Virus record (IMG/VR): IMGVR_UViG_3300046007_004619
Span: 1-28,475 of that record
Source: a virus
Length of the DNA: 28,475 bases
Strand: one strand, 5' to 3'
The first letter of the stretch is position 1. Each line of letters starts with the position of its first letter. This document shows positions 6,464-27,773 of the stretch, one piece after another. Both the position numbers and the translations under genes were made by a program. Under the pieces are notes generated by a model. That model did no database searches. It was not told the DNA's origin and saw nothing but the letters and a program-made list of their open reading frames with translations.

Positions 6464-7654
6464 TTAAGCAATAACTTTCCATGCCACACAAGATTCTATG
6501 TCCTTGTGCGCCATTAAGAAGTTAGTATGGTATTCATACTCTTCCTGACCAGTTTTCTCATTCATCCAATAGTTCATCCAACGTGGCATAGAAGCCCAGT
6601 TAGCTCTTGGATGCATAATACGACCATAAATCTTCAATGCGTTTTCAGCAGAAGGAAGAGAAAGAACCCAACCATTACCAATATAAGAAGTCTCAACACC
6701 AGTAATACGATCATTGTAAACCGCATTATAGGTATAGATATTAATTAACGCACCGTTATCTAAAGGATATGATCTTCTAAAAGTCAAACCTTTATATTCC
6801 TGCGCTCTTGGTAACAAGTCTTGTGCAACACGAACAACACTTGAAATAGTCAAATCAGAAGAAACCAAATAGTTTTTGGTCAAATCATAATTAAATACAT
6901 CATAAGCATCATCAGACATTACAACAGCAGAAGAACCAGAACGTGCATTAGCAGTTTCATAGATTCTTACAACGTCAAGAACTGGAGTACAAGATTTATC
7001 ATCAACTTTAGCTTTACTCCAAGCTCTTGCACCAGCAGTACCGCCAGAAAGAACAGGAAGAACAGTTGTTGAACTATCCCAAGGAGCAGTAACAGCAGAA
7101 GCAGTTAAGTTCACAGAAGGAATAAGTTTCAAACTATTCAATTGAGCAGTAGTTCTGATAACAGTTCTATTGAAATCATAACGAACAATAGGATGATTTT
7201 CACCAGAAGCTTGATAACCACCATAAAGGAAAATATCAGCAGCAGTTTTCTCAAACAAGTTCTCAAAGCGATATTCTGCCAGAGTTACTTTTTGTTGCAA
7301 TCTTAAAGCTTTGTTAGCTAAAACATCAACTTGACCAAATTGTTGACCAAATTGTCTACTGTTTAAAGTTTCAAAATCATCTGAAGTAATACTTTCTTTT
7401 GAATAAGCAAAGTACAATTCTTTTGTACCAAAGTCATTCAATTTAATTGGAGTAGCATCAGCAGTTGGAGCAACAAATTGACCCATAACATTCTTAATGT
7501 TATATTCTTGGTCAAGATTTACTCTTGTTCTATCTGAATATTGTGGAGCAGGAAAGAAACTTTGCAACCAATTAGGTCTCTTAGTTTCCATAGCTTCCAG
7601 CGCACCAGAAAGAATAGGTGCAACTTGATATGCGTCAAGAAATTGTGTAACCAT
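6464..7654 (-). CDS. Major capsid protein (gpE-like)
   Basis: A 396-residue protein of the lambda gpE family of HK97-fold capsid proteins. Recognisable parts are the start with PNWLQSFFP, the E-loop region (NVMGQFVAPTADATPIKLND), the spine and P-domain with QQKVTLAEYRFENLFEKTAA and VVMSDDAYDVFNYD, and the end RIMHPRANWASMPRWMNYW. It is longer than lambda gpE (341), with extra sequence around residues 175-220 (Ser/Thr/Gly-rich). AGGAG lies 10 bases before the ATG, and the preceding stop overlaps the start as TAATG. No separate cleaved N-terminal delta domain is obvious, which agrees with a separate scaffold. Confidence 0.93.
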   Translation of the reverse strand: MVTQFLDAYQVAPILSGALEAMETKRPNWLQSFFPAPQYSDRTRVNLDQEYNIKNVMGQFVAPTADATPIKLNDFGTKELYFAYSKESITSDDFETLNSRQFGQQFGQVDVLANKALRLQQKVTLAEYRFENLFEKTAADIFLYGGYQASGENHPIVRYDFNRTVIRTTAQLNSLKLIPSVNLTASAVTAPWDSSTTVLPVLSGGTAGARAWSKAKVDDKSCTPVLDVVRIYETANARSGSSAVVMSDDAYDVFNYDLTKNYLVSSDLTISSVVRVAQDLLPRAQEYKGLTFRRSYPLDNGALINIYTYNAVYNDRITGVETSYIGNGWVLSLPSAENALKIYGRIMHPRANWASMPRWMNYWMNEKTGQEEYEYHTNFLMAHKDIESCVAWKVIA

Positions 7655-9703: not shown

Positions 9704-9722
9704 TATTTTCTCCTGAGCTGCT

Positions 9723-9770: not shown

Positions 9771-9781
9771 TGTCAACTTAT

Positions 9782-11212
9782 TTATGCGTTTCCAGTAGAA
9801 TTTGCGTTTGCCTGACTATTATTAGCTTGTGCCATTTGTTTACCACCTGCCATTAATAAGTTATCAAGCCCAAGTTCCTGGATCATCTTTCTATCTTCAG
9901 CAATTTCTTCAAAAGTAGTATGACGTTCATCAAGTTTACTTTGTAAAGTTGCCATTCCGTTTTGAACTTCAAGAATATCAGCTTGTGCATCTTTAAGTTC
10001 ATCAACTCCATACCATCTAGGCATTTGAAATACTGGAATAGCTGTTGAAGTCCTGGGAATATATAGGTTTGCTAAGTCTTTAAAAGAAGTTGCAATAGGT
10101 CTAAGAAGAAGTGGGATTGTATAGAAGTGATGAACATATTCAATCCGGTTTCTTAACTCAATTGCAATTCCGCGAAGAGTTGAGAAATCAATTCCTTTAT
10201 AATCTCCTGTAAGTTGGAAATAAGGAATACCAATAGCAGCAGCAATTCTTCTTAGTTCAACTTCCATGAAAGGGATTAGGTTATTTCCAATATCTGAAGA
10301 TTGAATTGAAGTTAGTTTCTCACCTTTATTAAGATATTGAACATTACCTCCTCTTGCTTGAAAGATAACTTTATCGTTATTGTTCTGATCTTTCTTAATT
10401 GCTGGTGCTCCAACTGGAGTCATATTCATTGGATTTGTATTTTCAATAATCCAAGAAATAGCTTGAGCAGCTTTTTGTTTATTAACTGTCGCATCAGCAA
10501 GATCATCAAGTTCATAAAGAGGAAGAAGAACTGATGATAAAAAAGGAATACCTATCCATTGATTTGGATTTTCTCTAATAAAACTATGAATAAGTTCTGA
10601 AGCAGGGATTGTTATTTTCTCATAAGGGTTTGAATCAACTCGAACACTTGTATCAATTCTACTTCTTTGAAAGTAATACTCAACTGGTTTTGAATCTTCA
10701 AACTTTATCCCATTCCTTACATTATCATTAGCAGAAAGGCCAGAATAGAATATGTCATGAAACTCAGACTCAATAAACTCCAGTTTCAACGGAACTTTGT
10801 TCTTATTATTCCCTCTACGAATCTGCTTCCTTACAAAAGAACTTCCAGACATAAAACAACTCCCATGATGGATTGCTTGAAAAGTTCTGAAATCTCCATA
10901 ACCATCAAGCATTGGGTCAAGTTTAAACTCTTCCCATAAATCTTGCATTTGAGTATGTTTCTTCCCTTTCTTGTCAATCCAATTAACTTCAAGAGCTTTC
11001 ATATTTTCAACATACTTCTTAACTGCTGAAGAAGCATAACCATTGTTTCTTCTTGCATGAGCAGAACGAAGTTGAAGAGTTAGGAGTTCCCTTGCCGCAA
11101 TATTATCAGAAGTTCCATAAACAATTCCTGCTTGTTCTTTACGATAATTTGTAACTGCTCCTTCATAAGCAGGTTGTGTTAAAACACTAAAGTACATATC
11201 TTCTTCAGTCAT
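9782..11212 (-). CDS. Portal protein (gpB-like)
   Basis: A 476-residue member of the lambda gpB portal family (gpB is 533). Recognisable parts: ARELLTLQLRSAHARRNNGY near the N-terminus, IESEFHDIFYSGLSANDNVRNGIKFED, then ASELIHSFIRENPNQWIGIPFLSSVLLPLYELDDLADATVNKQ, and RRIAAAIGIPYFQLTGDYKGIDFSTLRG. The last is the typical portal segment before the C-terminal helices. It would form the dodecameric DNA gate at one capsid vertex. The C-terminus is Gln/Asn/Ala-rich (AQANNSQANANSTGNA). Its start overlaps the end of the gpW gene by one base (TAATG). Confidence 0.93.
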   Translation of the reverse strand: MTEEDMYFSVLTQPAYEGAVTNYRKEQAGIVYGTSDNIAARELLTLQLRSAHARRNNGYASSAVKKYVENMKALEVNWIDKKGKKHTQMQDLWEEFKLDPMLDGYGDFRTFQAIHHGSCFMSGSSFVRKQIRRGNNKNKVPLKLEFIESEFHDIFYSGLSANDNVRNGIKFEDSKPVEYYFQRSRIDTSVRVDSNPYEKITIPASELIHSFIRENPNQWIGIPFLSSVLLPLYELDDLADATVNKQKAAQAISWIIENTNPMNMTPVGAPAIKKDQNNNDKVIFQARGGNVQYLNKGEKLTSIQSSDIGNNLIPFMEVELRRIAAAIGIPYFQLTGDYKGIDFSTLRGIAIELRNRIEYVHHFYTIPLLLRPIATSFKDLANLYIPRTSTAIPVFQMPRWYGVDELKDAQADILEVQNGMATLQSKLDERHTTFEEIAEDRKMIQELGLDNLLMAGGKQMAQANNSQANANSTGNA

Positions 11213-11487: not shown

Positions 11488-11495
11488 AGTAACTC

Positions 11496-14137: not shown

Positions 14138-14160
14138 AACTATAATCTCAAAAAGGTTTC

Positions 14161-14181: not shown

Positions 14182-14198
14182 TATATATAAGGTATAAT
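14170..14198 (+). promoter_or_regulatory. Sigma70-type promoter of plus-strand operon
   Basis: TGGACA (14170-14175), 17 bases, TATAAT (14193-14198). The -10 is perfect and the -35 has five of six matches. Transcription would start near 14205, about 70 bases before the first plus-strand gene at 14277. Confidence 0.8.
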
Positions 14199-14222
14199 AC
14201 GCCAAAAAGCACTAATTGTAAA
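14194..14222 (-). promoter_or_regulatory. Sigma70-type promoter of morphogenesis operon, sharing the -10 region
   Basis: On the minus strand TTTACA (14222-14217), 17 bases, TATTAT (14199-14194); five of six matches in each box. Transcription would start near 14187, about 50 bases before the small terminase gene. The -10 box overlaps the opposite-strand -10 by five bases, so the two promoters cannot be occupied at the same time. Confidence 0.72.
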
Positions 14223-14276
14223 ACTATAAACGTAATAATTTATCTATAACTTGCTGAGGATTTTAAAGGGTTACTT

Positions 14277-14531
14277 ATGTCAAATCAAGAATTATTCAAC
14301 ATAGCTGTAGGATTTATTACTGCTTTAGGAGGGTGGGTTCTTAGAGTTGTCTGGGAATCTATAAAAGATTTACAGAAAGATAATAAAGAACTAACGGCAA
14401 AGATTTCTGAAGTTGAGAAACTTGTTGCCGGAGATTATGTTGAGAAGAGTTATTTCGAGGCAAAAGTTGATGCTCTTTTCGGAAAACTTGATAATATAAG
14501 AGATATGCTTGATAAGAAAGTTGATAAATAA
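14277..14531 (+). CDS. Membrane-anchored coiled-coil phage protein
   Basis: An 84-residue protein. Residues ~6-26 (LFNIAVGFITALGGWVLRVV) form one membrane segment, followed by a coiled coil (SIKDLQKDNKELTAKISEVE) and a second charged helix ending DMLDKKVDK. Similar short proteins are common in phages near tail-fibre or lysis genes, but their role is not established to my knowledge; a holin accessory role is possible. AAAGGG lies 6 bases before the ATG. It is the first gene of the plus-strand operon. Confidence 0.75.
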   Translation: MSNQELFNIAVGFITALGGWVLRVVWESIKDLQKDNKELTAKISEVEKLVAGDYVEKSYFEAKVDALFGKLDNIRDMLDKKVDK

Positions 14532-14541
14532 GTGAGGGTTT

Positions 14542-15018
14542 ATGATAGTTAATAGTGTTATTGAAAAACAAATACCGCAAATTGATGGTAGAATTGATGT
14601 TACTGAACGACATACTTATGATAATGGTGACACGCAAACCATCAACTATCTAGCTGATGCTTCACTTGATCTTCAACTTGTTGCTAGTCTTCGTGCAGAA
14701 AAAATAAATGTTGAACTTCAAGCAAAAGCTCTTGCTGAAGCAGAAGCTATGAATTATGAAGTTCCTTTCTTTAAAGCAGAATTCAGAGATAGATTCACAA
14801 CGCAAGAGCAAGTTCTTGTCGATAATTTTAATGCAACTTATCAAAGTAACCCTAATCTTTCTTCTGAACAAAAAGCAGGAATACTTTCTGCTTTAGCCTA
14901 TTATGCTGACGCTAGAAGAGTTTATTTAGCTCATCCTAAGACAATTGCTTTTGTTAATATGTATGAACAATTAGGTATTTTAACTTATGGTAGGGCAGCG
15001 GAGATATTAAATGCCTGA
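14542..15018 (+). CDS. Conserved phage protein, probable minor virion component
   Basis: A 158-residue protein. The N-terminus (IDGRIDVTERHTYDNGDTQT, then INYLADASLDLQLVASLRAE) resembles a family found beside tail-fibre genes in many tailed phages. The rest is helical and Ala/Glu-rich (AKALAEAEAMNYEVPFFKAE). GAGG lies 4 bases before the ATG. The last 8 bases overlap the next gene, suggesting coupled translation. No enzymatic motif is visible and the function is unknown. Confidence 0.7.
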   Translation: MIVNSVIEKQIPQIDGRIDVTERHTYDNGDTQTINYLADASLDLQLVASLRAEKINVELQAKALAEAEAMNYEVPFFKAEFRDRFTTQEQVLVDNFNATYQSNPNLSSEQKAGILSALAYYADARRVYLAHPKTIAFVNMYEQLGILTYGRAAEILNA

Positions 15019-16360
15019 TATTTATATTAACTCAGGAGCAACAACTCCTACAACACCTTATAATAGTTCATGGAATACAGCAGCTCAACTTTTAGTTACT
15101 GCCTCAGGTATTGATGCTGCTGGTGATACTTATTACATTTCCAATAAGCACAATGAAGTACCATCCACCAACCAAACTATAGCATTAGCAGGAACTAATA
15201 CAAACCCTAATAAACTTATTTGTGTTGATGATTCTGTATTTCCAGCTACAACACCTGTAACAATCCCATCAGGAACTATAGCTCCAACTGGAGCTTCTTC
15301 AATTTCTATACAAGGTTCTGGTTACTTTTGGGGACTTAAGTTCTTAGCTGGAACTGGTTCCGGTTCAAATTCATCTATAAATATAGGAACTTCTGATAAT
15401 AGTAATATTGTCATAGAGAATTGTTTTTTATCACTTGTAAATACATCTGCAAATGGCAGAATAGCTATTGGATCATCCTCAGCCTCAACAGAAGCAAATA
15501 TTGTATTCAGAAATGTAACTATAAGATTCTCAAATACTGGTCAAGGTTTTAGTATACTCGGTATAGGTAGATTTACTATGATTGGTGGTGGCTTTGACCC
15601 AGCATCAACCCTTTTAAATAACTTAATTACTGCTGGAGTAAATAATCAAATTTATTGTGAGTTCAGGGGTGTTGATTTAACTAGATTAGCCACGGGAGGG
15701 TCATTAGCTATTTCTCCTATAAACTCTGTAGGGGAGCTTAGATTTATAAATTGTAAGTTACCTCCAGGTTGGACTGGTGTTCCAGTAACAACTATTACTA
15801 ATTCTGGAATGAGGGTTTCACTGTATAACTGTGATAATGAGTCCACTAATTATAGACTTTGGATTGTAACATCTGCTGGCAGTATTAGAGAAAATACAGC
15901 TATTGTTAAAAGTAGCGGTGCTTCTGATGGAACTACCGCTATTTCGTGGAGGTTGTTATCTAATTCTTCTGCGAATGAGGCAATTAATCAGTTAGTATCT
16001 GACCCAATAGCAGTATGGATAGATACAACAGGGGCATCTAAAACTGTTTCATTAGACTTCTTACATGATTCTTTAACGTCTTTAAATGATTCTGAAATAT
16101 GGGCAGATGTGGAATATTTAGGTTCTTCAACTGAGCCGTTAGGTTCATATCTAGCAGATAGAAGATCAACACTAATGAGTACAACTACAGAGCATCCGAC
16201 TTCTTCTACTACATGGACAACCACTGGACTAACAAATCCAAATAAACAAAAATTAGAACTTACTTTCACCAACAATATGAAAGGGTTTATTTATTTGAGA
16301 GTTTATCTTGCAAAGCCCAGTTACACAATTTATGTTGACCCGAAACCTACGGTGACTTAA
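15011..16360 (+). CDS. Beta-helix-like virion protein
   Basis: A 449-residue Ser/Thr/Asn/Gly-rich protein. Repeated short strands such as SNIVIENCFLSLVN, ANIVFRNVTIRFSN, IYCEFRGVDL and GELRFINCKLPPG are characteristic of right-handed parallel beta-helix proteins. The C-terminal ~120 residues (VWIDTTGASKTVSLDFLHDS, then GFIYLRVYLAKPSYTIYVDP) look like a separate beta-sandwich. It starts MPDIYINSGATTPTTPYNSS. GGAG lies 7 bases before the ATG, inside the end of the previous gene. It is probably a fibre or surface protein of the virion. No catalytic residues can be named. Confidence 0.65.
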   Translation: MPDIYINSGATTPTTPYNSSWNTAAQLLVTASGIDAAGDTYYISNKHNEVPSTNQTIALAGTNTNPNKLICVDDSVFPATTPVTIPSGTIAPTGASSISIQGSGYFWGLKFLAGTGSGSNSSINIGTSDNSNIVIENCFLSLVNTSANGRIAIGSSSASTEANIVFRNVTIRFSNTGQGFSILGIGRFTMIGGGFDPASTLLNNLITAGVNNQIYCEFRGVDLTRLATGGSLAISPINSVGELRFINCKLPPGWTGVPVTTITNSGMRVSLYNCDNESTNYRLWIVTSAGSIRENTAIVKSSGASDGTTAISWRLLSNSSANEAINQLVSDPIAVWIDTTGASKTVSLDFLHDSLTSLNDSEIWADVEYLGSSTEPLGSYLADRRSTLMSTTTEHPTSSTTWTTTGLTNPNKQKLELTFTNNMKGFIYLRVYLAKPSYTIYVDPKPTVT

Positions 16361-16361
16361 T

Positions 16362-17159
16362 ATGGCTTCTTATCAGTTACCTGGGAAATATGTTATAGGA
16401 ACTGGACAAAGAACAAATCAACTGGATGGTGTTTATTTTGTAGATCAAACAAGCACTGGAGGAGTTGATAGTTCTAGTTCAGGAAGTTTAGGTAATCTAA
16501 GTCTATTCAGTGTAACTGGGGAAGGTGCAGGTACAAGTAATAGTAGCTCTTCAGGAAGTTTTGCAGGTTTAAGTTTAAACATAATTTCTGGTTCTGCTTC
16601 CAGTGAAGGGAATAGTGTTGTAGCAGGAAGTTTTGTTGGGATTAGTTTAAACACACTTTCTGGTGAGAGTAGTTTTGTTAACAATTCTGCTACTTCAGGG
16701 AGTTTTGGTAACTTAATCCTTACTTCTGTTTTAGGAAGTGGTTCATCTTCTTCTGGTGATGTTGCTTCAGGAAATTTAGCAAACTTATCAATTGGGACTT
16801 TACTTGGAGAAGGTTCTTTTACAAGAAATAGTGTTTCTTCAGGAGATTTAACCAATCTTCTTTTAAACATTGTTTCTGGAGAAGGAAGCACCATCTCTGG
16901 TGTTGTAAGTTCTGGTAGCTTTGCAGGATTAATCCTTAATACCCTTACAGCGAATATTACCTTTACAAGTAATGTAATAAGTTCTGGAAGTATCCAAGGA
17001 ATAACTTTAAACACTCTTTCTGGAACTGGTTCTGTCTCAGGACAATATCCTTCTGTCATACAAGAAATTGGTGAAAAAACTTTAACATTACTTCCAGTAA
17101 GTTCTTATGATTTAACCTTAACAAATGAACTTGGTCTTATGACCTTGGAGAGACTCTAA
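16362..17159 (+). CDS. Repeat protein with eight 24-residue Ser/Gly beta repeats
   Basis: A 265-residue protein. A 39-residue head (MASYQLPGKYVIGTGQRTNQ) is followed by eight gap-free 24-residue repeats at residues 40-231, and a 34-residue tail (IGEKTLTLLPVSSYDLTL). Each repeat starts SG[SND][LFI]xx[LI], has L-N-T/I-L-S-G in the middle, and ends in a Ser/Gly-rich stretch. The pattern of alternating hydrophobic residues with Gly turns suggests a regular beta-solenoid or extended fibre. It is likely a virion fibre or spacer. The stop overlaps the next start (TAATGG). Confidence 0.75.
   Translation: MASYQLPGKYVIGTGQRTNQLDGVYFVDQTSTGGVDSSSSGSLGNLSLFSVTGEGAGTSNSSSSGSFAGLSLNIISGSASSEGNSVVAGSFVGISLNTLSGESSFVNNSATSGSFGNLILTSVLGSGSSSSGDVASGNLANLSIGTLLGEGSFTRNSVSSGDLTNLLLNIVSGEGSTISGVVSSGSFAGLILNTLTANITFTSNVISSGSIQGITLNTLSGTGSVSGQYPSVIQEIGEKTLTLLPVSSYDLTLTNELGLMTLERL
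16479..17054 (+). repeat. Eight tandem 72-bp coding repeats
   Basis: Eight units of exactly 72 bases encode the 24-residue repeats. Protein similarity is clear, but the DNA copies have diverged, which indicates an old expansion kept under protein-level selection. The unit cores read GSLGNLSLFSV, GSFAGLSLNII, GSFVGISLNTL, GSFGNLILTSV, GNLANLSIGTL, GDLTNLLLNIV, GSFAGLILNTL and GSIQGITLNTL. Confidence 0.9.
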
Positions 17160-17476
17160 TGGCTAAGAAAGTTAAAGCCACTGTTTTACTTAATACAGAG
17201 AATAAATACAAAATTATTCTTTCTGTTCAAGGAATTGTTCAGAATCATACTCTAATAACTGCTGCTGAACTTAGAACTTCTGAAGGAGTTACACTTGCTG
17301 ATAGTGAGATTGATGCTTCTGATTGGGATTTTACAGATGCTGGTTTCCTTCTTGTTAAACTTGGTCTAGCTGAACTTCCTATAGGAAGTCATTCTTGCCG
17401 ACTTATTATTAAAGATTCAACCCATACAATTGGTCTTGCTTGGGATACTGAAATACTTTTAACTATTTTACCTTAA
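17159..17476 (+). CDS. Small beta-sandwich phage protein
   Basis: A 105-residue protein starting MAKKVKATVLLNTENKYKII. It shows alternating strands throughout (VKATVLLN, YKIILSVQGIV, GFLLVKLGLAELPIGSHSCR, LIIKDSTHTI) and no helix-rich part. It looks like a single Ig-like or baseplate-type beta-sandwich. Its start overlaps the previous stop by one base. It lies within the fibre module and is probably a virion component; I do not recognise a named family. Confidence 0.65.
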   Translation: MAKKVKATVLLNTENKYKIILSVQGIVQNHTLITAAELRTSEGVTLADSEIDASDWDFTDAGFLLVKLGLAELPIGSHSCRLIIKDSTHTIGLAWDTEILLTILP

Positions 17477-17489
17477 TTGGAGATTAAAT

Positions 17490-17924
17490 ATGGCCTCTGC
17501 TACTTTTACAAATGTTCCTCGTTTCCTTGCTAAAGGTGATTTGGATTGGGATACAATGACATGCAAAGTTTTGTTGGTAACTTCACAACTTTCTGAAGCG
17601 AATATTGATGCTTTTGACTATAGAGCAGATATTACAAATGAAGTTGCTAATGGTAATGGCTACGCAACTGGTGGTATTGCTCAGGCTTACACATTGGATG
17701 CACTTAATACAACTTCTAATGCACAGACAATAACTTATACTAATATAACTAATGGTTGGACTGCGGCTACTTTCTCTGCTGCGGGTGCAATTATTTACAA
17801 AGATACTGGTAATGCTGCAACTGATATTCTTCTACATTATGTTGAGTTTGCAACTGCTTTAGCTCCTTCTAATGGTAGTGCGAGTATTACTTATAGTAAT
17901 TCTTTTTCTATTGCTAGAGCGTAA
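17490..17924 (+). CDS. Conserved phage minor structural protein
   Basis: A 144-residue protein of a type common in tailed-phage structural modules: an opening ATFTNVPRFLAKGDLDWDT, the segment MTCKVLLVTSQL, then DYRADITNEVANGNGYATGG, and the later GAIIYKDTGNAATDILLHYV. It is all-beta, with no signal or membrane segment. GGAG lies before the ATG. Members are usually found next to fibre and spike genes, as here. The exact place in the virion is not known to me. Confidence 0.72.
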   Translation: MASATFTNVPRFLAKGDLDWDTMTCKVLLVTSQLSEANIDAFDYRADITNEVANGNGYATGGIAQAYTLDALNTTSNAQTITYTNITNGWTAATFSAAGAIIYKDTGNAATDILLHYVEFATALAPSNGSASITYSNSFSIARA

Positions 17925-17933
17925 GGACAACTT

Positions 17934-18377
17934 ATGGCTGATAATACAACATTAAACACAGGTTCTGGTGGCGATGTTATCGCTACTGATGATATTGGTG
18001 GAGTTAAGTACCAACGTATTAAGGTAACTTATGGGAGTGATGGTTCTTCTTCAGATGTTGCTGTAGGGAATGGACTTCCTATTGCTTCAAGTAATGTTAC
18101 TGTAACAGATCGTTCTGGAAGTATAACTACTGGAGGAACTGCCCAACAACTTATGGCGGCAAATACACTTCGTAAAGGTTTTTGGCTGCAAAACATAAGC
18201 ACAGGTGATTTATACATATCTGAAGTTGGTACTGCTACTACAAATAGTGGTACACCAAACAGCTTAGTTATAAAAGCTGGTGATCTATATGAAAGTCTTT
18301 TTGGTTGTGTTAGTTCAGCAGCTATAAGTATTATTGGCGCTACAACTGGACAGAAGTTTGTAGCTAGGGAGTGGTAA
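17934..18377 (+). CDS. Small virion protein with C-terminal beta-sandwich domain
   Basis: A 147-residue protein. The N-terminal NTGSGGDVIATDDIGGVKYQ followed by RIKVTYGSDG is a recurrent phage motif. The C-terminal domain (TGGTAQQLMAANTLRKGFWL, QNISTGDLYISE, AAISIIGATTGQKFVAREW) is a beta-sandwich also seen as an independent module in phage structural proteins. It is probably a surface or fibre-associated component. Another protein with the same kind of C-terminal fold lies downstream at 20128. Confidence 0.7.
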   Translation: MADNTTLNTGSGGDVIATDDIGGVKYQRIKVTYGSDGSSSDVAVGNGLPIASSNVTVTDRSGSITTGGTAQQLMAANTLRKGFWLQNISTGDLYISEVGTATTNSGTPNSLVIKAGDLYESLFGCVSSAAISIIGATTGQKFVAREW

Positions 18378-18378
18378 G

Positions 18379-20109
18379 ATGCCTATTTCAAAAAAATCAT
18401 CACTTATACTTGATGCTTCTGGTAACTCTATAGAAGTTTTTACTTCAGCTTATTTAGGATTTAAACCTACTGATACAAACTTAGCAACAAAACTCCAAAC
18501 TTTTCTAAACTCTGTTGCTGGAGAAGTAGCTATTGATTTTGGTGTTGGTAAATTTAATTTTGACGCTAACGTAATTGTAGCTCAATCTGGAATACATATA
18601 TATGGTAAAGGCCCACTAACTACACAATTTAACTTTTCTACTTCTGTGGATGGGGAGTTCCTTACTTTTTCTAAGGGTGCAAGTATTATATACAATTGTT
18701 CTTTAAAAGACCTATCTATCTATACAGCAAATACTACTAACTCTAAAACTGCAATTGCTCTAAAAGATGTTAGTCTTTTTACATTAAGCCATGTTAATAT
18801 TATTGGTTTTAAAGGAAAAGATTCCCACGGACTTAGAGTTTATGGTAGGGAAAATAGTACCTTTGAGAAAGTTAGAATTTCTGATACAGATATTTGTATA
18901 AGATTCTCACCAAACACTAATACAACAGAATGGCTTTCAGTAGATCATTTTGTTCTTAGAGATACTTATTTATCTCCTACTTCTGCTGCTTCTGCTGGAG
19001 GAACTATACCAACAACAAGTATTCTTCTTGATTCTAAAGCTATGGTATCAGGATTTACTATGGAAGGAAGAAATGCTTGGGTAGGGGGGGAAAGAGGATT
19101 CTATAATAATGATACTACAAGTACAATGGCAAGTTATATGCTTGAAATTGCAAATTGTAGAAGAGAGCAACCTAGTTCAACAGCTTATTCTGCTATTCAT
19201 ATAGAAAGAACTGCTGTAGCTGGTAAAATGCAATCAGTAAGAATTAAGAATTTTTACGAAGGTGTTGGGCAAAAAGGGATTTACCTTCGAGGAGTAGATT
19301 TTGCAGCTATAGAAAATACAACTATAACTGATTCAACATATACTGCTTATGACGTAGATAATTGTACTTCTATTGAATGGAATAATGTTAATTTTTCTAC
19401 AACAAATTCAGCTTTATTTGTTCAACCAAATATGGAACTAGTAAGAGGTGTTCAGAAAATAGATGCTAATATCTATCCTAGAACAGCGAGTTTTAATAAA
19501 AAACAAGCAGCTTTGTATCAACAAAGACCTTTAGTTGGTATGAATGGGGCTTATACTTGGGAATATGCTGGTGATTTAGCAGATTCGACAACATTACAAC
19601 TTCCATTTAATACAACAAATGGTTATAAACTAGCTATTGTTGATGTTGCAGTTCTAGCTACAGATGGAACTATAAGTGAGCAAGGTTCTTTTACTGTTGC
19701 AGCTATTGCTGGTGTTGCTCAATCTGGCTCTATTACAGCTACTACATCTTCACCAACTGTTACTATAACTGGAGGAACTTTTTCTTCTACTTTAGCTGGA
19801 AAGTATCTTTATATTGGGGAAGTTTCTGCTGGATTGGTTTCAACTGTTGCTGGAGATGGGCTTTCTTTAACTTTATCTGCTAATTCTGCTGTTGCTGCTA
19901 CTTCTTCAACTAACTGGCATGGTATTGCTGTCAATGATACTGTTAGAGGAATTAAGAAAATATCTGGAAGTGCTGGTATAACTAATGCTAATACTGCTGG
20001 AAAGTTTATGTTATGGTGTAATGGAGCTACTCCAATGGTGAATAATGTTTATTTTTATAATAGATTAGGAAAAACTGTTTCTATTGTAGCTAAGGCTACT
20101 TTTATTTAA
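18379..20109 (+). CDS. Tailspike-like parallel beta-helix protein
   Basis: A 576-residue protein. Residues ~30-90 (AYLGFKPTDTNLATKLQTFL, VAIDFGVGKFNFDANVIVAQ, IHIYGKG) form the typical opening of pectate-lyase-fold tailspikes. Beta-helix coils follow to ~370 (LKDLSIYTANTTNSKTAIAL, LSHVNIIGFKGKDSHGLRVY, FEKVRISDTDICIRF). The C-terminal ~180 residues are a separate beta-rich part with Thr/Ser/Gly-rich strands (GSITATTSSPTVTITGGTFS). It may bind or cleave surface polysaccharide; no catalytic pair can be assigned. There is no N-terminal tail-anchoring domain of known type, so attachment may use another protein. Confidence 0.75.
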   Translation: MPISKKSSLILDASGNSIEVFTSAYLGFKPTDTNLATKLQTFLNSVAGEVAIDFGVGKFNFDANVIVAQSGIHIYGKGPLTTQFNFSTSVDGEFLTFSKGASIIYNCSLKDLSIYTANTTNSKTAIALKDVSLFTLSHVNIIGFKGKDSHGLRVYGRENSTFEKVRISDTDICIRFSPNTNTTEWLSVDHFVLRDTYLSPTSAASAGGTIPTTSILLDSKAMVSGFTMEGRNAWVGGERGFYNNDTTSTMASYMLEIANCRREQPSSTAYSAIHIERTAVAGKMQSVRIKNFYEGVGQKGIYLRGVDFAAIENTTITDSTYTAYDVDNCTSIEWNNVNFSTTNSALFVQPNMELVRGVQKIDANIYPRTASFNKKQAALYQQRPLVGMNGAYTWEYAGDLADSTTLQLPFNTTNGYKLAIVDVAVLATDGTISEQGSFTVAAIAGVAQSGSITATTSSPTVTITGGTFSSTLAGKYLYIGEVSAGLVSTVAGDGLSLTLSANSAVAATSSTNWHGIAVNDTVRGIKKISGSAGITNANTAGKFMLWCNGATPMVNNVYFYNRLGKTVSIVAKATFI

Positions 20110-20127
20110 TTATTTATAGGATTATCT

Positions 20128-20523
20128 ATGTCAATTGTCCATAACACCCCACAACTTGCTCAAACTATGGTTGATACTATAGAGTCTGACCCAACAGATA
20201 GATTAACCTTTAATACTTTTGTTCCTTCAATCTTCTCTGGTGTTAAGTCAGCAACAACTACTGTAACTGGTCAAAGTGAAGCTATTGCAGAAGGTACTAT
20301 TAAAATCCAAGTAACTAATAAAGATGCAACTAATGGTTGCTATATTGGTTTTGGTAATTCTGCTTCTGCCGCTGAAGCTGCTTGTTCTTCTGGTACTGCC
20401 GGGATTAATAGATTCTTAGTTCTTGCTGATTCACAAATGCTACAACTTGTAAATAACTATTCTCATTATGCTTGGTTAGGTATTGGTGGCACTGTTTCTT
20501 TAAGAATTTCACAAGGAGTATAA
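20128..20523 (+). CDS. Small beta-sandwich virion protein
   Basis: A 131-residue protein starting MSIVHNTPQLAQTMVDTIES. Residues ~45-131 (VTGQSEAIAEGTIKIQVTNK, CYIGFGNSASAAEAACSSGT, INRFLVLADSQMLQLVN, YAWLGIGGTVSLRI) resemble the beta-sandwich of the 147-residue protein at 17934. Lying between two spike genes, it may be a stem, adaptor or decoration protein. AGGAT lies before the ATG, and a 1-base gap separates it from the next gene. Confidence 0.62.
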   Translation: MSIVHNTPQLAQTMVDTIESDPTDRLTFNTFVPSIFSGVKSATTTVTGQSEAIAEGTIKIQVTNKDATNGCYIGFGNSASAAEAACSSGTAGINRFLVLADSQMLQLVNNYSHYAWLGIGGTVSLRISQGV

Positions 20524-20524
20524 T

Positions 20525-22375
20525 ATGAGTAGAGATTGGTATATTGCCCCTGCTGGTTCAGGAGTTAGTGGTCTAGGTGGTGCTAATGACCCTATTGTTG
20601 GTCTATCTTCTGTTAATAACAACGCTATTGGTGCAACTTCAGGAGATAGATTTATTTTTCTTCCTGGTACTCATATAGAGCAGTTTAATGTTCCTATTGA
20701 TAATCTAACACTTCTTTCTTCTGGTATTGTTTTATTTGATGGTACTTGCTCTTTAAATGGAACTGCTTCAATTTCAACCACAACAGGGTTAGAAGTTTCT
20801 ACAGGTGCAAGCTGGATTCAAGTTAGTTCTTCACCAAATATTTGGAAAAAAGGTTGTAACTATACTGGTATTCTTTTTGTTGATGATGTTTGGTTAGAAC
20901 CAATGCCAACTTCTCTTGGTACAAATGTTGAAGGAACAATAACTGCGGCTATTCAAGAATTTGAATGGACTTCTGCTGCTATTACTACTGGTTCATTTAA
21001 TAAAACACTTTATATTAGACTTCCTTCTGGGACTAACCCAACACAATTTAATATTAGAGTTGCTGCTTCAAAAAGATTAACAACTTCGGACACTGTTGCT
21101 GCTGGATTAGTACAAGCAATAAATAAAACTGGTATTACTTTTGAAGGTGATTGGCGCTCAAGAGGGGTTTATAACTATAGTGGGTTTGGAGCAGGTTTCT
21201 ACTTTGAACGCTGCACTGATTTAATTAACCCTAATGGTATATTTAATTCATCTTATTGCTTTCAACCATTACAAATATGTGCTGGTGATAGAGTAAGAGT
21301 ACAATTAGAAGCCAGTTATTGCTATAACTGTCCTGGTGTTGAGGCTGCTACAAACTTACCAGTACCTACTGTTTATACTGGTGGCGAGGTAGAAGTTTAT
21401 AACTGGAAAACAAACTTCGTTGGTTGGATGCCTAGATATGGTGGAGGCTCACATAATATATCTTTCTCGACAGATGGCGATGGAGGTATAGGTGTTGGTT
21501 ATAAAGGAGGGACTCTAGGAAGAGTTATCATTAGAAACGGTTCATGTACTAACGGCGGGCCTTCTATTAATGTAAATAAAACTGGTTGGGCTAATGCTGG
21601 AACAGTCGTACCTTTAGGCTCTGGTGTTTATGTTGGTACAGCAGATACCATGACGGTTAATAAAATAGATATATTAAACAATACTATTTTAAATACTAGA
21701 AGATTAGGTATTAAAGTAGCTGGTTCTGCTGTGACAATCGGGACTACATCAATTATTGGTAACGTAATTAAAGACTTGAATGGTATTGTTGATGCTGGAG
21801 CTGGCCAATATCCAATTATAGATATTGGAGAGCCTACTGGAAATGTTTTAGCGGGTAATCATGTCGTTGCAAACAATACTTTAATAAACTGTAAGTCAAC
21901 AACTTCAGGTATTAGGGTTAAACGAGTTAATGCTGCGTCTACTATAAAAATAACAAATAATCTATTCCAAGATTATGGCTATGCTACTGGTTGGGGAGGC
22001 TCTCAACATGGTTTTATTTATATCTCTGATGCTATTTCAACTGGAATAACAATTGATGCAAATAACCTTCATGGGGTTTCTGCAAACTACGCAAGGATTA
22101 ATGTAACTCCTTATGCAAACATTACAACTTGGAAAGCAGCATTAAATGCAATATCTTCAGGTATGGGTACTTTAGAACAAAGCGGCACAGTTACATTTGA
22201 TGCTAATTATGTTCCTTCTGCTGGAACTGCTAACCCAATTGAAACTGGTTTCAAATATTGGGGAACAGGAGCTAGACCAGAAGATATAAATGGTGAACCT
22301 TTCCCTGATGTTTCTATTAACATTGGCGCTGTTCAAACAACAAACAACGCCTTTCATCCGAAGAATATTAAATAA
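20525..22375 (+). CDS. Second tailspike-like parallel beta-helix protein
   Basis: A 616-residue protein starting MSRDWYIAPAGSGVSGLGGA, the kind of opening seen in bacterial and phage right-handed beta-helix proteins. Helix coils are visible at VNKIDILNNTILNTRRLGIK, TSIIGNVIKDLNGIV, NHVVANNTLINCKSTTSGIR and STIKITNNLFQDYG, with Asn ladders typical of the fold. A segment at ~85-185 (GCNYTGILFVDDVWLEPMPT) looks like a carbohydrate-binding insertion. The C-terminus (INGEPFPDVSINIGAVQ) has the ending common in such proteins. It could be a depolymerase or receptor-binding spike. Its stop codon directly abuts the stop of the convergent gene at 22376. Confidence 0.75.
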   Translation: MSRDWYIAPAGSGVSGLGGANDPIVGLSSVNNNAIGATSGDRFIFLPGTHIEQFNVPIDNLTLLSSGIVLFDGTCSLNGTASISTTTGLEVSTGASWIQVSSSPNIWKKGCNYTGILFVDDVWLEPMPTSLGTNVEGTITAAIQEFEWTSAAITTGSFNKTLYIRLPSGTNPTQFNIRVAASKRLTTSDTVAAGLVQAINKTGITFEGDWRSRGVYNYSGFGAGFYFERCTDLINPNGIFNSSYCFQPLQICAGDRVRVQLEASYCYNCPGVEAATNLPVPTVYTGGEVEVYNWKTNFVGWMPRYGGGSHNISFSTDGDGGIGVGYKGGTLGRVIIRNGSCTNGGPSINVNKTGWANAGTVVPLGSGVYVGTADTMTVNKIDILNNTILNTRRLGIKVAGSAVTIGTTSIIGNVIKDLNGIVDAGAGQYPIIDIGEPTGNVLAGNHVVANNTLINCKSTTSGIRVKRVNAASTIKITNNLFQDYGYATGWGGSQHGFIYISDAISTGITIDANNLHGVSANYARINVTPYANITTWKAALNAISSGMGTLEQSGTVTFDANYVPSAGTANPIETGFKYWGTGARPEDINGEPFPDVSINIGAVQTTNNAFHPKNIK

Positions 22376-23068
22376 TTAACCTCTAATAAGTTCTGGATGG
22401 TCAAGTTGAGAAAGAATCTCAGTATTATGAACATTCCAGAACTTTAATCTATGCCCTTCTCTTTGATTAAGAATATTCCTTAAAGTATCGTAGTTAGTAC
22501 AGATTTGTCTTTCCTGTAACCAACCTTCAGGAAGATTCATCTTTAATCTCGTAACATCTTTATAATAAGGACTTTCTTTATTTCTATATTCTTGCAATGA
22601 ACGATTAAATGCGGTTATTGCAAGAACTTCTGTCCCTTCTTCAAAATCTTCTGAAGTAACTGGCCGCTTATCTAAAGTGTGCATTGTTGAAGAAGATTGT
22701 TTAGTCATCCCAACAGTATATGTGTCATATTCTGACCACCATCCTCTTGGTGCTTGTATATAAATCCAAACAACAATTGAACGAAGGAATTTCTGTTCTG
22801 CTCTAATGTAATCTGGATTGTTTCGGATGAAGTCTTTTAATGGATTAACTTCTTTGTTTGCCAGAAGTTTTGCTATTTTTTCTGCCTTAGCAAATTTATC
22901 TGTATTCCAGAAAATCCTATTTGTTGCTCTATCAACATTACATCTTGTCTTGCATAAAGATTCAAAAATCCTAAAGTCACTTGCAGGAATCTTATGGTCA
23001 TAAAAACTCAAACTAAGCCCAAAAAGTGCTTCTTCGTAACCTGCTTCTTTTAAAATTTTAACAAACAT
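22376..23068 (-). CDS. Phage protein, possible ThyX-like fold
   Basis: A 230-residue protein matching a family widespread in tailed phages. Its signature is APRGWWSEYDTYTVGMTKQS (residues ~106-125) followed by SSTMHTL, and LPEGWLQERQICTNYDTLRN (~179-198) followed by REGHRLKFWN. Such proteins are sometimes annotated as thymidylate-synthase-complementing (ThyX) because of a similar fold. The ThyX motif RHRxxSxNexSxRY is not intact here, so flavin-dependent thymidylate synthesis is not supported. The start overlaps the previous stop as TAATG. It is the last gene of the rep operon. Function uncertain. Confidence 0.6.
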   Translation of the reverse strand: MFVKILKEAGYEEALFGLSLSFYDHKIPASDFRIFESLCKTRCNVDRATNRIFWNTDKFAKAEKIAKLLANKEVNPLKDFIRNNPDYIRAEQKFLRSIVVWIYIQAPRGWWSEYDTYTVGMTKQSSSTMHTLDKRPVTSEDFEEGTEVLAITAFNRSLQEYRNKESPYYKDVTRLKMNLPEGWLQERQICTNYDTLRNILNQREGHRLKFWNVHNTEILSQLDHPELIRG

Positions 23069-23154
23069 TAGTAACCTATAAGGATTAAGATAAGAATATA
23101 AAGAATACTCATCATTGTGAGCATGTAAAGTAAACCGTCAAAGATTTTCTTCAT
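23068..23154 (-). CDS. 28-residue single-pass membrane peptide
   Basis: ATG 23154 to TAA 23070-23068 encodes MKKIFDGLLYMLTMMSILYI followed by LILILIGY: two Lys, then a ~20-residue hydrophobic segment. Its start overlaps the upstream stop (ATGA) and its stop overlaps the downstream start (TAATG), so it lies exactly in the coupled chain of the operon. That arrangement is the main argument that it is a real gene. The role is unknown; a lysis, signalling or membrane-anchoring role is possible. Confidence 0.68.
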   Translation of the reverse strand: MKKIFDGLLYMLTMMSILYILILILIGY

Positions 23155-23390
23155 TGTTTATACCAAGAAGCTATTTGTTTTCTTGCAAGTTCTGAATTTG
23201 CTGACTTTTCACAGTGTTTTACATCAAAAAAGATAAGATTTAGCACTTTTTCAAAGTTTTTCCAGAAGAAAGAGTCCTTTTCAACCCGCATACGGTATGC
23301 TTTTGCAGATATTGTTTCATCTGGTTGACCTCCAAAAACTGTATTAACAAGCTGATCTATTGCAATAAGTATATTCCAAATATATTTCAT
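23151..23390 (-). CDS. Conserved phage protein with DETIS motif
   Basis: A 79-residue protein. The N-terminal segment MKYIWNILIAIDQLVNTVFG is amphipathic or membrane-associated, followed by GGQPDETISAKAYR, a motif I recall from small phage and prophage proteins near lysis modules. The C-terminal part (FWKNFEKVLNLIFF, KHCEKSANSELARKQI) is helical with one Cys and one His. GGAG lies 8 bases before the ATG, and the stop of the preceding gene overlaps as ATGA. Function not established. Confidence 0.7.
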   Translation of the reverse strand: MKYIWNILIAIDQLVNTVFGGQPDETISAKAYRMRVEKDSFFWKNFEKVLNLIFFDVKHCEKSANSELARKQIASWYKQ

Positions 23391-23653
23391 TCCATATTCT
23401 CCAAATGATTAGCAAATTGATTAAGTTCGTGAGCCATGAAGCGAAGTTTAGTTATAAATTCCCTCATAAGAAGGTTATTATCTTTATGAATCCTTACTTT
23501 CCCATGACAGTCAGAAACTTCAACAAAAGTATATCTATCTAAGTTTCTTCCTTGGTTAGTTACATCAACCCCATCGAAGCAAACAAGTGAACCTGTGTAA
23601 TGGGATGAAGGCGGATTAAGAAACTGCCTTGAATTATAATCTACTCTGCTCAT
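23387..23653 (-). CDS. Small conserved hypothetical protein
   Basis: An 88-residue protein. The N-terminal half is beta-prone (HYTGSLVCFDGVDVTNQGRN, RYTFVEVSDCHGKVRIHK) and the C-terminal half is one long helix (LLMREFITKLRFMAHELNQF). GGAG lies 8 bases before the ATG and the start overlaps the previous stop as ATGA. I recognise no family. Its conserved place in the Rep-led operon suggests an early or replication-linked role. Confidence 0.6.
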   Translation of the reverse strand: MSRVDYNSRQFLNPPSSHYTGSLVCFDGVDVTNQGRNLDRYTFVEVSDCHGKVRIHKDNNLLMREFITKLRFMAHELNQFANHLENME

Positions 23654-23880
23654 AAATCATTCTCCACTTTCCAATCTTCGTAACAACCAATGTGTAATGT
23701 AAGAATCTTTCTTGCTTCGGGGATGAACTTAACAATAGGTTGTTTCTCATCACCAGAATAAATAAGTTCTTCATCTTTGAATATCTTTACTAGATTCGGA
23801 TAATCTCCTAATTCTCCTCCAAGCATTGATCTTGTTAGGTTATGTAAATCTTCAAAATCTTTATCTTTAAGCACCTTCAT
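23650..23880 (-). CDS. Small hypothetical protein, possible GTG start
   Basis: 76 residues from ATG 23880, or 74 from GTG 23874. The sequence GAAGGAG ATGAAG GTG places the ribosome site directly against the ATG but at an ideal 6 bases from the GTG, so GTG 23874 is the more likely start. The protein has a short helix (FEDLHNLTRSMLGGELGDYP) and then strands (LVKIFKDEELIYSGDEKQPI, ILTLHIGCYEDW). No family is recognised. It overlaps both neighbours. Confidence 0.6.
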   Translation of the reverse strand: MKVLKDKDFEDLHNLTRSMLGGELGDYPNLVKIFKDEELIYSGDEKQPIVKFIPEARKILTLHIGCYEDWKVENDL

Positions 23881-24106
23881 CTCCTTCTAACAAATTAATA
23901 ATATATCCACAAGCATCTTTCATACTTTGTTTCTCAACATCCAAGCCGACTTCAAGAATAAAACCTCCAAGATGTGTTAATCCCCATAGAAGTTTTGGGT
24001 ATTCAAACAACTCTCCTTTAAGTTCTCCATTGTAACAAGCGTATATTTCATTAATAACTTCCCTCTCTATAAGCCTTCCGTCGATTAGTTCTATGTATGC
24101 TGACAT
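23867..24106 (-). CDS. Small hypothetical protein downstream of rep
   Basis: A 79-residue acidic protein starting MSAYIELIDGRLIEREVINE, with LLWGLTHLGGFILEVGLDVE in the middle and a C-terminal helix (DACGYIINLLEGDEG). It overlaps the end of rep by 16 bases and the next gene by 14, so its expression is tied to Rep. A replication-control or early phage role is possible. No family is recognised. Confidence 0.6.
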   Translation of the reverse strand: MSAYIELIDGRLIEREVINEIYACYNGELKGELFEYPKLLWGLTHLGGFILEVGLDVEKQSMKDACGYIINLLEGDEGA

Positions 24107-24831
24107 TGTTCTTCTACCTTTTCCTCAACTTTAAGGTTCACCTTAAATAAAATCTTAGTTGCTTGCCTTCCAGTATATTCTACAGTGTAGGTTATAAAAA
24201 TATTACTTAGTAGATTAACTTCTGCAACCGCTATGTCTATAACTTTTTGCCTAAAGTTACTAAATCTTGTATAAGATTCATCGCCAATACCTAGAAGTCG
24301 TCTGACTTCTTCAACATCCCTATCTAACTTCTGTGCTCTGAGCCACTTATTACATAATCTATAGAGTCTTATGCTGTATATACTCTGCATCCTGCAAGTA
24401 TTTTCAAGATAATACTTTGAATAAGGGTTATCTTCACCTAATTTAGCAAAGAAAGGAATAATATCCTGATGCCAGCGAAGACTTACCTTATGTGTTTCAG
24501 GATTATATTCAATAGCATCTACCCAAGAAATGATTCTTTTTGTCTTTTCTCCTGCGTTTGGGTCAACAAGTTTACTTTTTATAACAAGTATTTTTGTTTT
24601 AAGTGTTTTACAAGCATCAACAAGAGCATGATAAGCGCAATCTATTGTTAGATTAAATTGATCTGCGAACTCTTGTAAAGGTATTTCGTAAAACTTATCC
24701 TTATCTAAGCCTCCTTTGGCATAGTTTCTTGCTAATGTTAATTGAATTATTCTTATTTCTGTAAGTGATAATTCATGACTTGCATCAATGATTTGATGTG
24801 GTTCACATATTAATAGTTTGTTTTTACTCAT
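24091..24831 (-). CDS. rep: Replication initiator, Rep_3/RepB family
   Basis: A 246-residue plasmid-type initiator. The N-terminal winged helix (~10-130) has the family opening PHQIIDASHELSLTEIRIIQ. The second winged helix (~138-235) carries the diagnostic pattern MQSIYSIRLYRLCNKWL, EEVRRLLGIGDESYTRFSNF and RQKVIDIAVAEVN. Such proteins bind iterons as monomers to open the origin, and often repress their own promoter as dimers. Two perfect 21-bp iterons and a strong promoter lie just upstream. No Shine-Dalgarno sequence precedes its ATG; instead a 20-codon leader ORF ends in an ATGA overlap, so translation is probably coupled. Its presence next to virion genes is the main evidence for a phage-plasmid. 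Confidence 0.9.
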   Translation of the reverse strand: MSKNKLLICEPHQIIDASHELSLTEIRIIQLTLARNYAKGGLDKDKFYEIPLQEFADQFNLTIDCAYHALVDACKTLKTKILVIKSKLVDPNAGEKTKRIISWVDAIEYNPETHKVSLRWHQDIIPFFAKLGEDNPYSKYYLENTCRMQSIYSIRLYRLCNKWLRAQKLDRDVEEVRRLLGIGDESYTRFSNFRQKVIDIAVAEVNLLSNIFITYTVEYTGRQATKILFKVNLKVEEKVEEQCQHT

Positions 24832-24890
24832 AAATTATTTAATAAATTATATTCTCCCATGCCAAAAACATCCCTCCTTCTCCTCTTCAT
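24828..24890 (-). CDS. Leader ORF translationally coupled to rep
   Basis: ATG 24890 begins a 20-codon ORF encoding MKRRRRDVFGMGEYNLLNNL, whose TGA overlaps the rep ATG (ATGA, 24831-24828). An AGGAGGAGG lies 9 bases before the ATG in a purine-rich leader, while rep has only AT-rich sequence in front. Codons 3-6 are AGG AGA AGG AGG, four successive Arg codons that are rare in many enterobacteria. In IncFII and IncB plasmids a leader peptide coupled to rep controls replication. A competing short ORF (ATG 24871, 10 codons, ending 24839) lies in another frame with its own GGAGGG. Confidence 0.62.
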   Translation of the reverse strand: MKRRRRDVFGMGEYNLLNNL

Positions 24891-24919
24891 CCTCCTTTTC
24901 CTCCTCCTTTCCCTTTCCT
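24871..24919. repeat. Polypyrimidine/polypurine tract in rep leader
   Basis: Forty-nine bases that are almost all pyrimidine on the plus strand (one A at 24889) form a purine-rich 5' leader in the rep mRNA with several GGAGG-like ribosome sites. The tract may tune ribosome loading on the leader ORFs. A triplex or other unusual DNA structure is possible but not shown. Confidence 0.75.
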
Positions 24920-24992
24920 ACTTATATTATATAAGAACAACCTTTCTTCTTTCTTAACTTATAGTTATTCCCAAACTTCCCACTACACCAGC

Positions 24993-25021
24993 ATTATACC
25001 ATATATGACTAAAACCGTCAA
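24993..25021 (-). promoter_or_regulatory. Sigma70 promoter of rep operon
   Basis: On the minus strand TTGACG (25021-25016), 17 bases, TATAAT (24998-24993), with an extended -10 (TGG in front of TATAAT). Start of transcription near 24986, giving a leader of about 155 bases before rep. The iterons end 12 bases upstream of the -35, so Rep binding could affect the promoter. Confidence 0.82.
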
Positions 25022-25200
25022 TCTTTTTAGCAAGCCGAATTTTTGTAGTCGATAGCCGAATTTTTGTAGTCGATAGAGTGAAAAAAAGTGCGAATTTATC
25101 AACAAAATCAAAGACTTATCAGCACCGTGCCTCATCCTATAAGTACTTATAAGACGAAAAGGCTAATCCCTTACTGATTTTGTGGGAATTATTGAAAAGT
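25022..25200. other. Probable replication origin region
   Basis: Besides the iterons this gene-free stretch contains a DnaA-box-like TTATCAACA (25096-25104, one mismatch to TTATCCACA) and a perfect 14-bp palindrome TATAAGTACTTATA (25138-25151). AT-rich sequence flanks both sides. No partition site or toxin-antitoxin gene is seen. The whole gap between rep and the GIY-YIG gene is about 400 bases and is explained by promoter, leader and origin elements. Confidence 0.72.
25033..25076. repeat. Two tandem 21-bp iterons
   Basis: AGCCGAATTTTTGTAGTCGA plus T is repeated perfectly at 25033-25053 and 25054-25074, followed by AG. A partial third copy (GCGAATTT) is seen at 25090-25097. The 21-bp period (two helical turns) and the place upstream of rep are typical of Rep_3 iterons. 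Confidence 0.88.
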
Positions 25201-25237: not shown

Positions 25238-25690
25238 CTAACATCTTTTAAGTAAATCCTCAAAACTCCATCTTTCTTCTTTAAACTTATTCCCAATGTT
25301 TAAAACATCCTTAACATAAACCTCAGTATTTCCATTATTAAAATCAAAAAGATTAAGACCCTTATATCTCCATTCTTTAAACTCTTTATGAAGAAGTCCT
25401 TCAATAACTAACGCTTGACTTGCTTTAGCAAAACTTAAAGAAGCAAGAAGCTCAACTTTATACTTATAACTTATATTTAAAGATTCAATCCTTTCCCTAA
25501 CTGTTTTCATCGTGAAGCCTATCTTATATAAAGTATGAGAATCATTGCTTATTCTTAAATAATAAACTTTACCTCCTGTTCGATAATACTTTGCATCTTC
25601 TGGGTATTGGATTTCGTTAATATATTTTATATAAAGTTCTCCAGCGACTTCTTTAAGCCCTCTTGTGAAGAGTTTCTCCGGCTGCCACAT
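25238..25690 (-). CDS. GIY-YIG-like (T5orf172-type) protein
   Basis: A 150-residue protein. KVYYLRISNDSHTLYKIGFT holds the YYL...YKIG pair that corresponds to GIY-YIG, followed by Arg65 in TVRERIESLN and Glu97 in VIEGLLHKEFKEWRYKG, positions expected for the catalytic Arg and metal-binding Glu. A NGNTEVY segment follows near 119-125. GIY-YIG nucleases cut DNA in repair, homing or defence; small stand-alone forms are common in phages and plasmids. GGAG lies 7 bases before the ATG. An extended -10 with an overlapping palindrome lies upstream. Confidence 0.78.
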   Translation of the reverse strand: MWQPEKLFTRGLKEVAGELYIKYINEIQYPEDAKYYRTGGKVYYLRISNDSHTLYKIGFTMKTVRERIESLNISYKYKVELLASLSFAKASQALVIEGLLHKEFKEWRYKGLNLFDFNNGNTEVYVKDVLNIGNKFKEERWSFEDLLKRC

Positions 25691-27020: not shown

Positions 27021-27057
27021 TAAAAAAAGGCCGCCTGGAATCAATCCAAACGGCCTT
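27021..27057 (-). terminator. Rho-independent terminator after 236-residue protein
   Basis: On the minus strand AAGGCCGTTTGGA, loop TTGAT, TCCAGGCGGCCTT forms a 13-bp stem (two G-T wobbles), followed by TTTTTTA. It starts 6 bases after the stop codon of the gene ending at 27063. It isolates that gene from the small operon downstream, which therefore needs its own promoter; a weak TATAAC at 27005-27000 is the only candidate seen. Confidence 0.9.
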
Positions 27058-27062: not shown

Positions 27063-27773
27063 TTATGCTTTTTCTCTAAATGTTACGTCGAACTCAATAG
27101 GACAATCGAATTCATCTTTTTTGCTTGCAATTGCACAAATAAATATGAATTTACTTTCGAGTTCCGCTTTTGCAAGCTTCCAATTATCCAAAGATATGCT
27201 GGCTTTGATTAATTCGACGTTCCCGCTTCCAATAAACTTTCTAAAATCAGAAAATCCCAACGGTTTTAAACTGTTCAAACTCTCTTCTTTTTCCGACATT
27301 GCGTTATAGGTTTCTAATTGTTCACTTGATACAAGCGAGTTTCTTAAACCTTCAACAAATGTTAGCAAGTCGGCTTTTGTTGACTTGTCAGAAAATACTG
27401 ATAAATCAGAATAAAGCCTTGCAGCGTCAATTGCTGCAAGTTTTAAGCAGTTATTCAGATACTCTTCAGAAGTTAAAAGCTTTTTAACTTGTTCACTAGG
27501 TTTCTGTTCGTTTCCGTTCTCTAAGGTTTTTTGGTGAAGTTTACCTAAATAACCAGCTTGCAAAGTTTCCAAAACTTCCGCGGGATTATTCTCACGGGAA
27601 AAATATTGTAAAAGTTTTGCTTGCTGCAATTCGATACGAATTGAATAATCTACATTATTGAAAGTCACAATATCACCCACAATATTAGATGATTCTGCTA
27701 TTGTGTTGGTTTTACCTTGTCCGTTGTTATTAGAGGCCAAAATCTGTTGTACGTTCATGTTTGCAGTTTTCAT
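27063..27773 (-). CDS. 236-residue protein of unknown function
   Basis: Starts MKTANMNVQQILASNNNGQG. A low-complexity Asn/Gly/Ser-rich N-terminal ~35 residues is followed by a strand-rich stretch (GDIVTFNNVDYSIRIELQQA) and then mostly helices (LLTSEEYLNNCLKLAAIDAA, KADLLTFVEGLRNSLVSSEQ, FSDFRKFIGSGNVELIKASI), ending in strands (KFIFICAIASKKDEFDCPIE). AAGG lies before the ATG. It is the only gene in its transcript unit: five dyads lie in its leader and a strong terminator follows. It may be abundant or tightly controlled. No family recognised. Confidence 0.65.
   Translation of the reverse strand: MKTANMNVQQILASNNNGQGKTNTIAESSNIVGDIVTFNNVDYSIRIELQQAKLLQYFSRENNPAEVLETLQAGYLGKLHQKTLENGNEQKPSEQVKKLLTSEEYLNNCLKLAAIDAARLYSDLSVFSDKSTKADLLTFVEGLRNSLVSSEQLETYNAMSEKEESLNSLKPLGFSDFRKFIGSGNVELIKASISLDNWKLAKAELESKFIFICAIASKKDEFDCPIEFDVTFREKA

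Follow-up and report, generated by a model that had tools for sequence, protein, structure and literature searches.

Burkholderia phage KS14, which has a P2-like virion and is a proven plasmid in its lysogens, carries a Rep_3 initiator (123.8 bits) with 22-bp iterons 172 nt upstream of rep, together with ParA, and no polymerase A is annotated in it. N15, a linear phage-plasmid of Escherichia, has a gpA-type terminase and the lambda-type head gene order; its initiator is not a Rep_3 protein but a large Toprim-containing replication protein, and it has a protelomerase, ParAB and a repressor of its own. In the circular 48.5-kb plasmid of E. coli ATCC 25922 and its relatives, a gpA-type terminase occurs with an IncFII RepA initiator, along with contractile-tail genes, ParA and a RelE-type toxin. 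crAssphage (Carjivirus communis), from an unrelated gut lineage, pairs a lytic-looking gene content with a plasmid-type initiator, RepL, and has been reported as a phage-plasmid (PMC11652158, PMC12977533).

The DNA analyzed here (the window), 28,475 bp from an uncultured bacterial virus, is an IMG/VR record with open ends, in which a Rep_3 initiator and iterons lie on the same molecule as lambda-like virion genes (Table 1). The original prediction read it as a prophage kept as an iteron plasmid. We favor, with a probability of about 0.58, a reading in which positions 24091-25200 form a complete Rep_3 iteron replicon acting as the phage's own replication origin. We found no published description of this lineage in the part of the literature that was covered.

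Results

An intact Rep_3 initiator with upstream iterons

The initiator, previously described as complete from its letters alone, is a full-length ORF in which both winged-helix domains score above their Pfam cut-offs (Rep3_N, 91.6 bits against 22.4; Rep3_C, 53 bits against 21.1), and sequence comparison pairs it with RepE (E 2e-11) and Pi (E 2.5e-8). Among named subfamilies RepM comes nearest, at 156 bits and under its cut-off of 250; the closest plasmid initiators, with ~32-34% identity over 91-94% of Rep, belong to RepM plasmids of Acinetobacter and Psychrobacter, which unlike the window are ordinary plasmids as far as examined. An AlphaFold prediction that drew on 14 phage initiators (pLDDT 86, pTM 0.82) gives a fold that matches the RepE/Pi type: The best Foldseek match is RepE54 bound to DNA (7soz, TM 0.76/0.83), and Pi on iteron DNA (2nra) was matched too. 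The overlap between rep and a short upstream leader ORF is a speculative candidate for translational coupling.

The two perfect 21-bp tandem repeats of the original prediction are indeed present, 202-245 nt upstream of rep, as two copies that are 100% identical. They constitute the top-scoring tandem array in the window, and the repeat occurs nowhere else there, with no copy expected in 100 shuffles; when the array was compared with 1000 other segments of the contig, none was as good, and the same held for shuffles (0/1000). The strong promoter claimed for this region is likewise there, as a near-consensus site between the iterons and rep that is the top site of the region, the total of promoter-like sites being not above chance (20 found, 26 expected). 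A DnaA-box-like site, also claimed, does not stand out from the background: One-mismatch sites occur at chance level (84 seen, 96 expected), and a scan of the window found no exact TTWTNCACA box anywhere.

Table 1. Features of the window, with positions counted from its first base.
Feature	Position	Strand	Basis or remark
Tape-measure protein, truncated by contig end	3..2504	-	Function from position and length
Major capsid protein	6464..7654	-	Phage_cap_E, 37 bits; phrog_29
Portal protein, lambda family	9782..11212	-	Phage_portal_2, 179 bits
Terminase large subunit, gpA type, 651 aa	11496..13451	-	GpA_ATPase and GpA_nuclease
Tail spike/fibre gene cluster, convergent with rep operon	15011..22375	+	ORFs; assignment of the original prediction
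230-aa protein, phrog_6721	22376..23068	-	Last gene of presumed rep operon
Four overlapping small ORFs, 79/76/88/79 aa, downstream of rep	23151..24106	-	ORF list
rep, Rep_3 initiator, WH1 and WH2	24091..24831	-	Intact 246-aa ORF; Pfam Rep3_N/Rep3_C; fold match
Candidate leader ORF, 10 codons (MGEYNLLNNL)	24828..24860	-	Sequence reading; TGA overlaps rep ATG
Sigma-70-like rep promoter, TTGACG-17-TATAAT	24993..25021	-	11/12 positions; TG before -10
Iteron 1, 21 bp, rep-sense core GACTACAAAAATTCGGC	25033..25053	-	Perfect tandem repeat
Iteron 2, 21 bp, identical to iteron 1	25054..25074	-	Repeat continues 2 bases to 25076
Perfect 14-bp palindrome TATAAGTACTTATA, upstream of iterons	25138..25151		Direct reading
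T5orf172/MUG113 (GIY-YIG-like) protein, upstream of iterons	25238..25690	-	Profile match; common to relatives
236-aa protein	27063..27773	-	Synteny

The gpA-type packaging reported on the same molecule was borne out by both GpA domains and a lambda-type portal, and the last of the spike genes, which had been placed 2 kb away, stops 1.7 kb from rep. The four small ORFs downstream of rep, probably one operon, have no relatives among the lineage contigs compared. At 27027-27057 on the minus strand, just downstream of the gene for the 236-aa protein, a strong hairpin of 13 pairs (7 of them G-C) precedes a T-run and resembles a terminator.

Extension of the window

The window's left end interrupts the tape-measure gene, which is complete (1294 aa) in a contig, G001, that matches window positions 3-19128 at 98-99% identity almost throughout, apart from a short stretch near 6 kb at 82%. 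Of the search for the remainder of the contig, a check proposed earlier, the left side succeeded: G001 adds ~10 kb past that end, with tail-tip, lysis-type and endolysin-like genes, for a combined map of ~38.4 kb that is still incomplete. On the right side nothing was gained, no contig being found with the 22-mer from the right end. G001 (L025) and L138, which come from different metagenomes, end one base apart, L138 reaching the further, ~340 bp past the endolysin gene, and this shared end may be a physical genome end. Terminal direct repeats of 20-399 bases were absent from the first 21 records.

The arrangement recurs among terminase relatives

With Rep as the query, a search of viral contigs returned zero relatives because Rep is too divergent; the terminase query succeeded instead, and relatives were gathered with it as sets of 20 and then 80 viral contigs that partly overlap. 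Rep3_N is present in 15 of 65 contigs with the same gpA-type terminase (the window counted) and Rep_3 in 8/12 of the analyzed ones at least 35 kb long; the 50 terminase contigs that gave no Rep_3 match are mostly short fragments. Iterons were scored over the 250 nt preceding each rep, as the best tandem repeat with a period of 20-23 relative to shuffles and to other windows of the same contig. Tandem iterons of 20-22 bp occur at most 250 nt upstream in ten of the 11 rep loci having upstream sequence: At nine loci no more than 2/1000 genome windows were as good, and the array of G064 is weaker (31/1000). The same 250-nt scoring found no iterons upstream of rep in G031, and no 20-23-bp tandem array was found upstream of rep in the single RepM plasmid region examined, which had been intended as a positive control. 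The Rep_3/iteron arrangement is not a one-off in this lineage.

Several relatives have peculiarities of their own. G052 has two divergent Rep_3 genes ~4 kb apart (L322:10898-11683 and L322:15872-16606), each with its own, different iterons. In seven relatives (G047, G048, G065, G069, G070, G072 and G073), the contig breaks within ~200 bp of rep, and the origin region seems either hard to assemble or near a genome end. Long, non-coding, repeat-rich tracts of low complexity lie upstream of rep in G014 (AT-rich; L026:2045-4100) and G015 (GC-rich; L030:3950-6120), and part of an internal gene near rep is repeated in inverted orientation at the start of G031 (L217:1-156, L219:4210-4749), perhaps an assembly artefact. 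Very large tail-tip proteins in G014 (14293-24942, L026/L027) and in the G021 contig (24413-29845, L224) have, as judged by eye, intein/Hint-like insertions near the N terminus.

All four contigs longer than 50 kb encode polymerase A, a Pif1-like helicase, a PD-(D/E)XK protein and an AAA protein, and UvrD, ligase, ThyX and dUTPase are present in several long relatives. Rep_3 occurs in three of these four contigs; because the remaining one, G039, has the full replisome and no Rep_3, Rep_3 is not essential to the lineage.

Initiators differ between near-identical backbones

Rep identity follows terminase identity loosely (r 0.38). G069 shares 93% terminase identity with G070, G072 and G073 and only 17-19% Rep identity, its Rep being nearer to that of the window (37%); likewise, G031 and G048 have terminases that are 86% identical and Reps that are 20% identical. 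Near-identical terminases accompanied by such divergent Reps show that the replicon is exchanged as a cassette among relatives.

Discussion

Starting from what is observed (the rep gene and its predicted fold, the iterons, the promoter match, the arrangement kept in relatives and its co-occurrence with a phage replisome), we infer iteron binding, origin activity, autoregulation, a replisome in the missing part and use during infection. Rep would be transcribed leftward from the iteron-adjacent promoter, and its monomers would bind the two 21-bp iterons, with neighbouring DNA being opened and host helicase recruited; surplus Rep should then restrain its own promoter. Onward replication would be carried out by the phage-encoded polymerase A, helicases and nucleotide enzymes of this lineage, and the window genome's own replisome genes would sit past its open right end. 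We think that the primary role of the replicon is its use in infection, with a plasmid stage optional or absent. Synteny of the early region supports this reading: The 230-aa protein at 22376-23068 is 63% identical to a protein within the replisome cluster of G061, and G061 and G032 both encode, 2-2.5 kb upstream of rep, relatives of the 236-aa protein at 27063-27773, which as a search query gave no match. Counting against it are the two iterons, which are few for a stable plasmid origin, the absence from the window of the replisome genes, which the relatives lead us to expect, and the existence of both a Rep_3 gene without upstream iterons (G031) and a replisome without Rep_3 (G039).

The possibility that this is a true phage-plasmid, whose prophage is extrachromosomal by means of the Rep_3 iteron replicon and whose partition or copy control would be encoded in the missing part or belong to a type not yet recognised, deserves to be taken seriously, and on balance we doubt it. 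What stood of the original prediction is a Rep_3/iteron replicon in a genuine phage genome, with virion and packaging genes sharing a molecule with a plasmid-type initiator here and in relatives. In KS14, isolated as plasmid DNA from lysogens, Rep_3 and four 22-bp iterons occupy the same place, and a linear phage-plasmid state has been reported for crAssphage (PMC12977533). The swapping of initiators between near-identical virion backbones would be expected if incompatibility were under selection. Less well supported is the plasmid way of life: Neither the window nor its 10-kb extension nor any of the 19 relatives searched, all incomplete records, gave a ParA profile match, whereas KS14 as a control did, and no Par families occur among those listed for 145 early-region proteins (eight single-member families fall outside the listing). 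Long relatives encode polymerase A, ligase, ThyX and dUTPase, which also speaks against a plasmid prophage. An HTH_3 repressor was not found by profile either, a weak test in that the KS14 control was equally silent. Nor was there a close relative among 72,556 plasmids; a search of plasmid collections for Rep and gpA together had been suggested, and in PLSDB the terminase query reached at best 31% identity, on a 43.5-kb Microbulbifer plasmid without Rep_3.

The earlier statement that no integrase is seen agrees with our searches for the tyrosine type, which gave no match in the window, in the ~10 kb added to its left or in any lineage record tested, fragments reaching up to 66 kb; KS14 and pFN9E, the positive controls for the ParA and tyrosine integrase searches, both matched. 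This absence fits a phage-plasmid and makes it very improbable that the virus is an integrating temperate phage with its integrase in the missing part and Rep_3 as a merely lytic initiator, even though the window is incomplete and a distant terminase relative, Marinobacter phage PS3 (32%), does carry an integrase. Among 84,980 genomes, the nearest terminase (63%) sits on a 33.9-kb contig whose entire length appears to be phage DNA, no chromosomal flank being visible; neither PLSDB nor these genomes revealed a close relative that is known as a plasmid or integrated as a prophage. That contig (JAPLYQ010000142.1; L223/L224) is binned in a Candidatus Roizmanbacteria MAG and is possibly mis-binned. 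Hardly credible, finally, is an assembly chimera or a dead plasmid remnant, that is, a rep joined to phage DNA by error or no longer functional. Contigs of several relatives do break within ~200 bp of rep, as in a region that is hard to assemble; however, independent contigs share the arrangement and its neighbouring genes, and since relatives of the 230-aa protein (in G061) and of the 236-aa protein (in G061 and G032) occur in early regions there, a chimera was rejected, whereas a dead remnant is opposed by an intact rep ORF with both domains complete.

A use of the replicon as the phage's own origin can be approached directly, the minimal origin of ~1.1 kb being small enough for such a test. 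A broader proposal, which we consider rather unlikely as a whole, is that a widespread gpA-terminase lineage with its own polymerase uses iteron replicons as exchangeable origin cassettes, such that near-identical virion backbones would fall into different incompatibility groups and could coexist as episomes or during superinfection. If swapped replicons do set phage compatibility, plasmid incompatibility becomes a testable force in phage evolution. There is also a consequence for surveys of phage-plasmids, which rely on initiators beside phage genes: An initiator gene alone is no proof of a plasmid prophage.

Among described systems, KS14 resembles the window in its type of initiator and the placement of its iterons, with Reps that are ~26% identical, and differs in its virion, its ParA and its demonstrated plasmid state. 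A contrast with N15 in virion genes, part of the original prediction, was abandoned, N15 having gpA-type packaging and a similar head gene order itself; the TerL proteins are distant (23% identical), and it is the replication protein that sets N15 apart. The E. coli 48.5-kb plasmids share the pairing of gpA-type terminase and plasmid initiator and differ in the family of that initiator and in their tail, partition and toxin genes, and crAssphage shares the lytic-looking content with an initiator that is RepL instead of Rep_3. A plasmid initiator together with gpA packaging is thus already known. What is different here is a lineage that pairs its plasmid initiator, Rep_3 with iterons, with a full phage replisome, carries no recognised ParA-type partition gene or integrase, and swaps the replicon between relatives.
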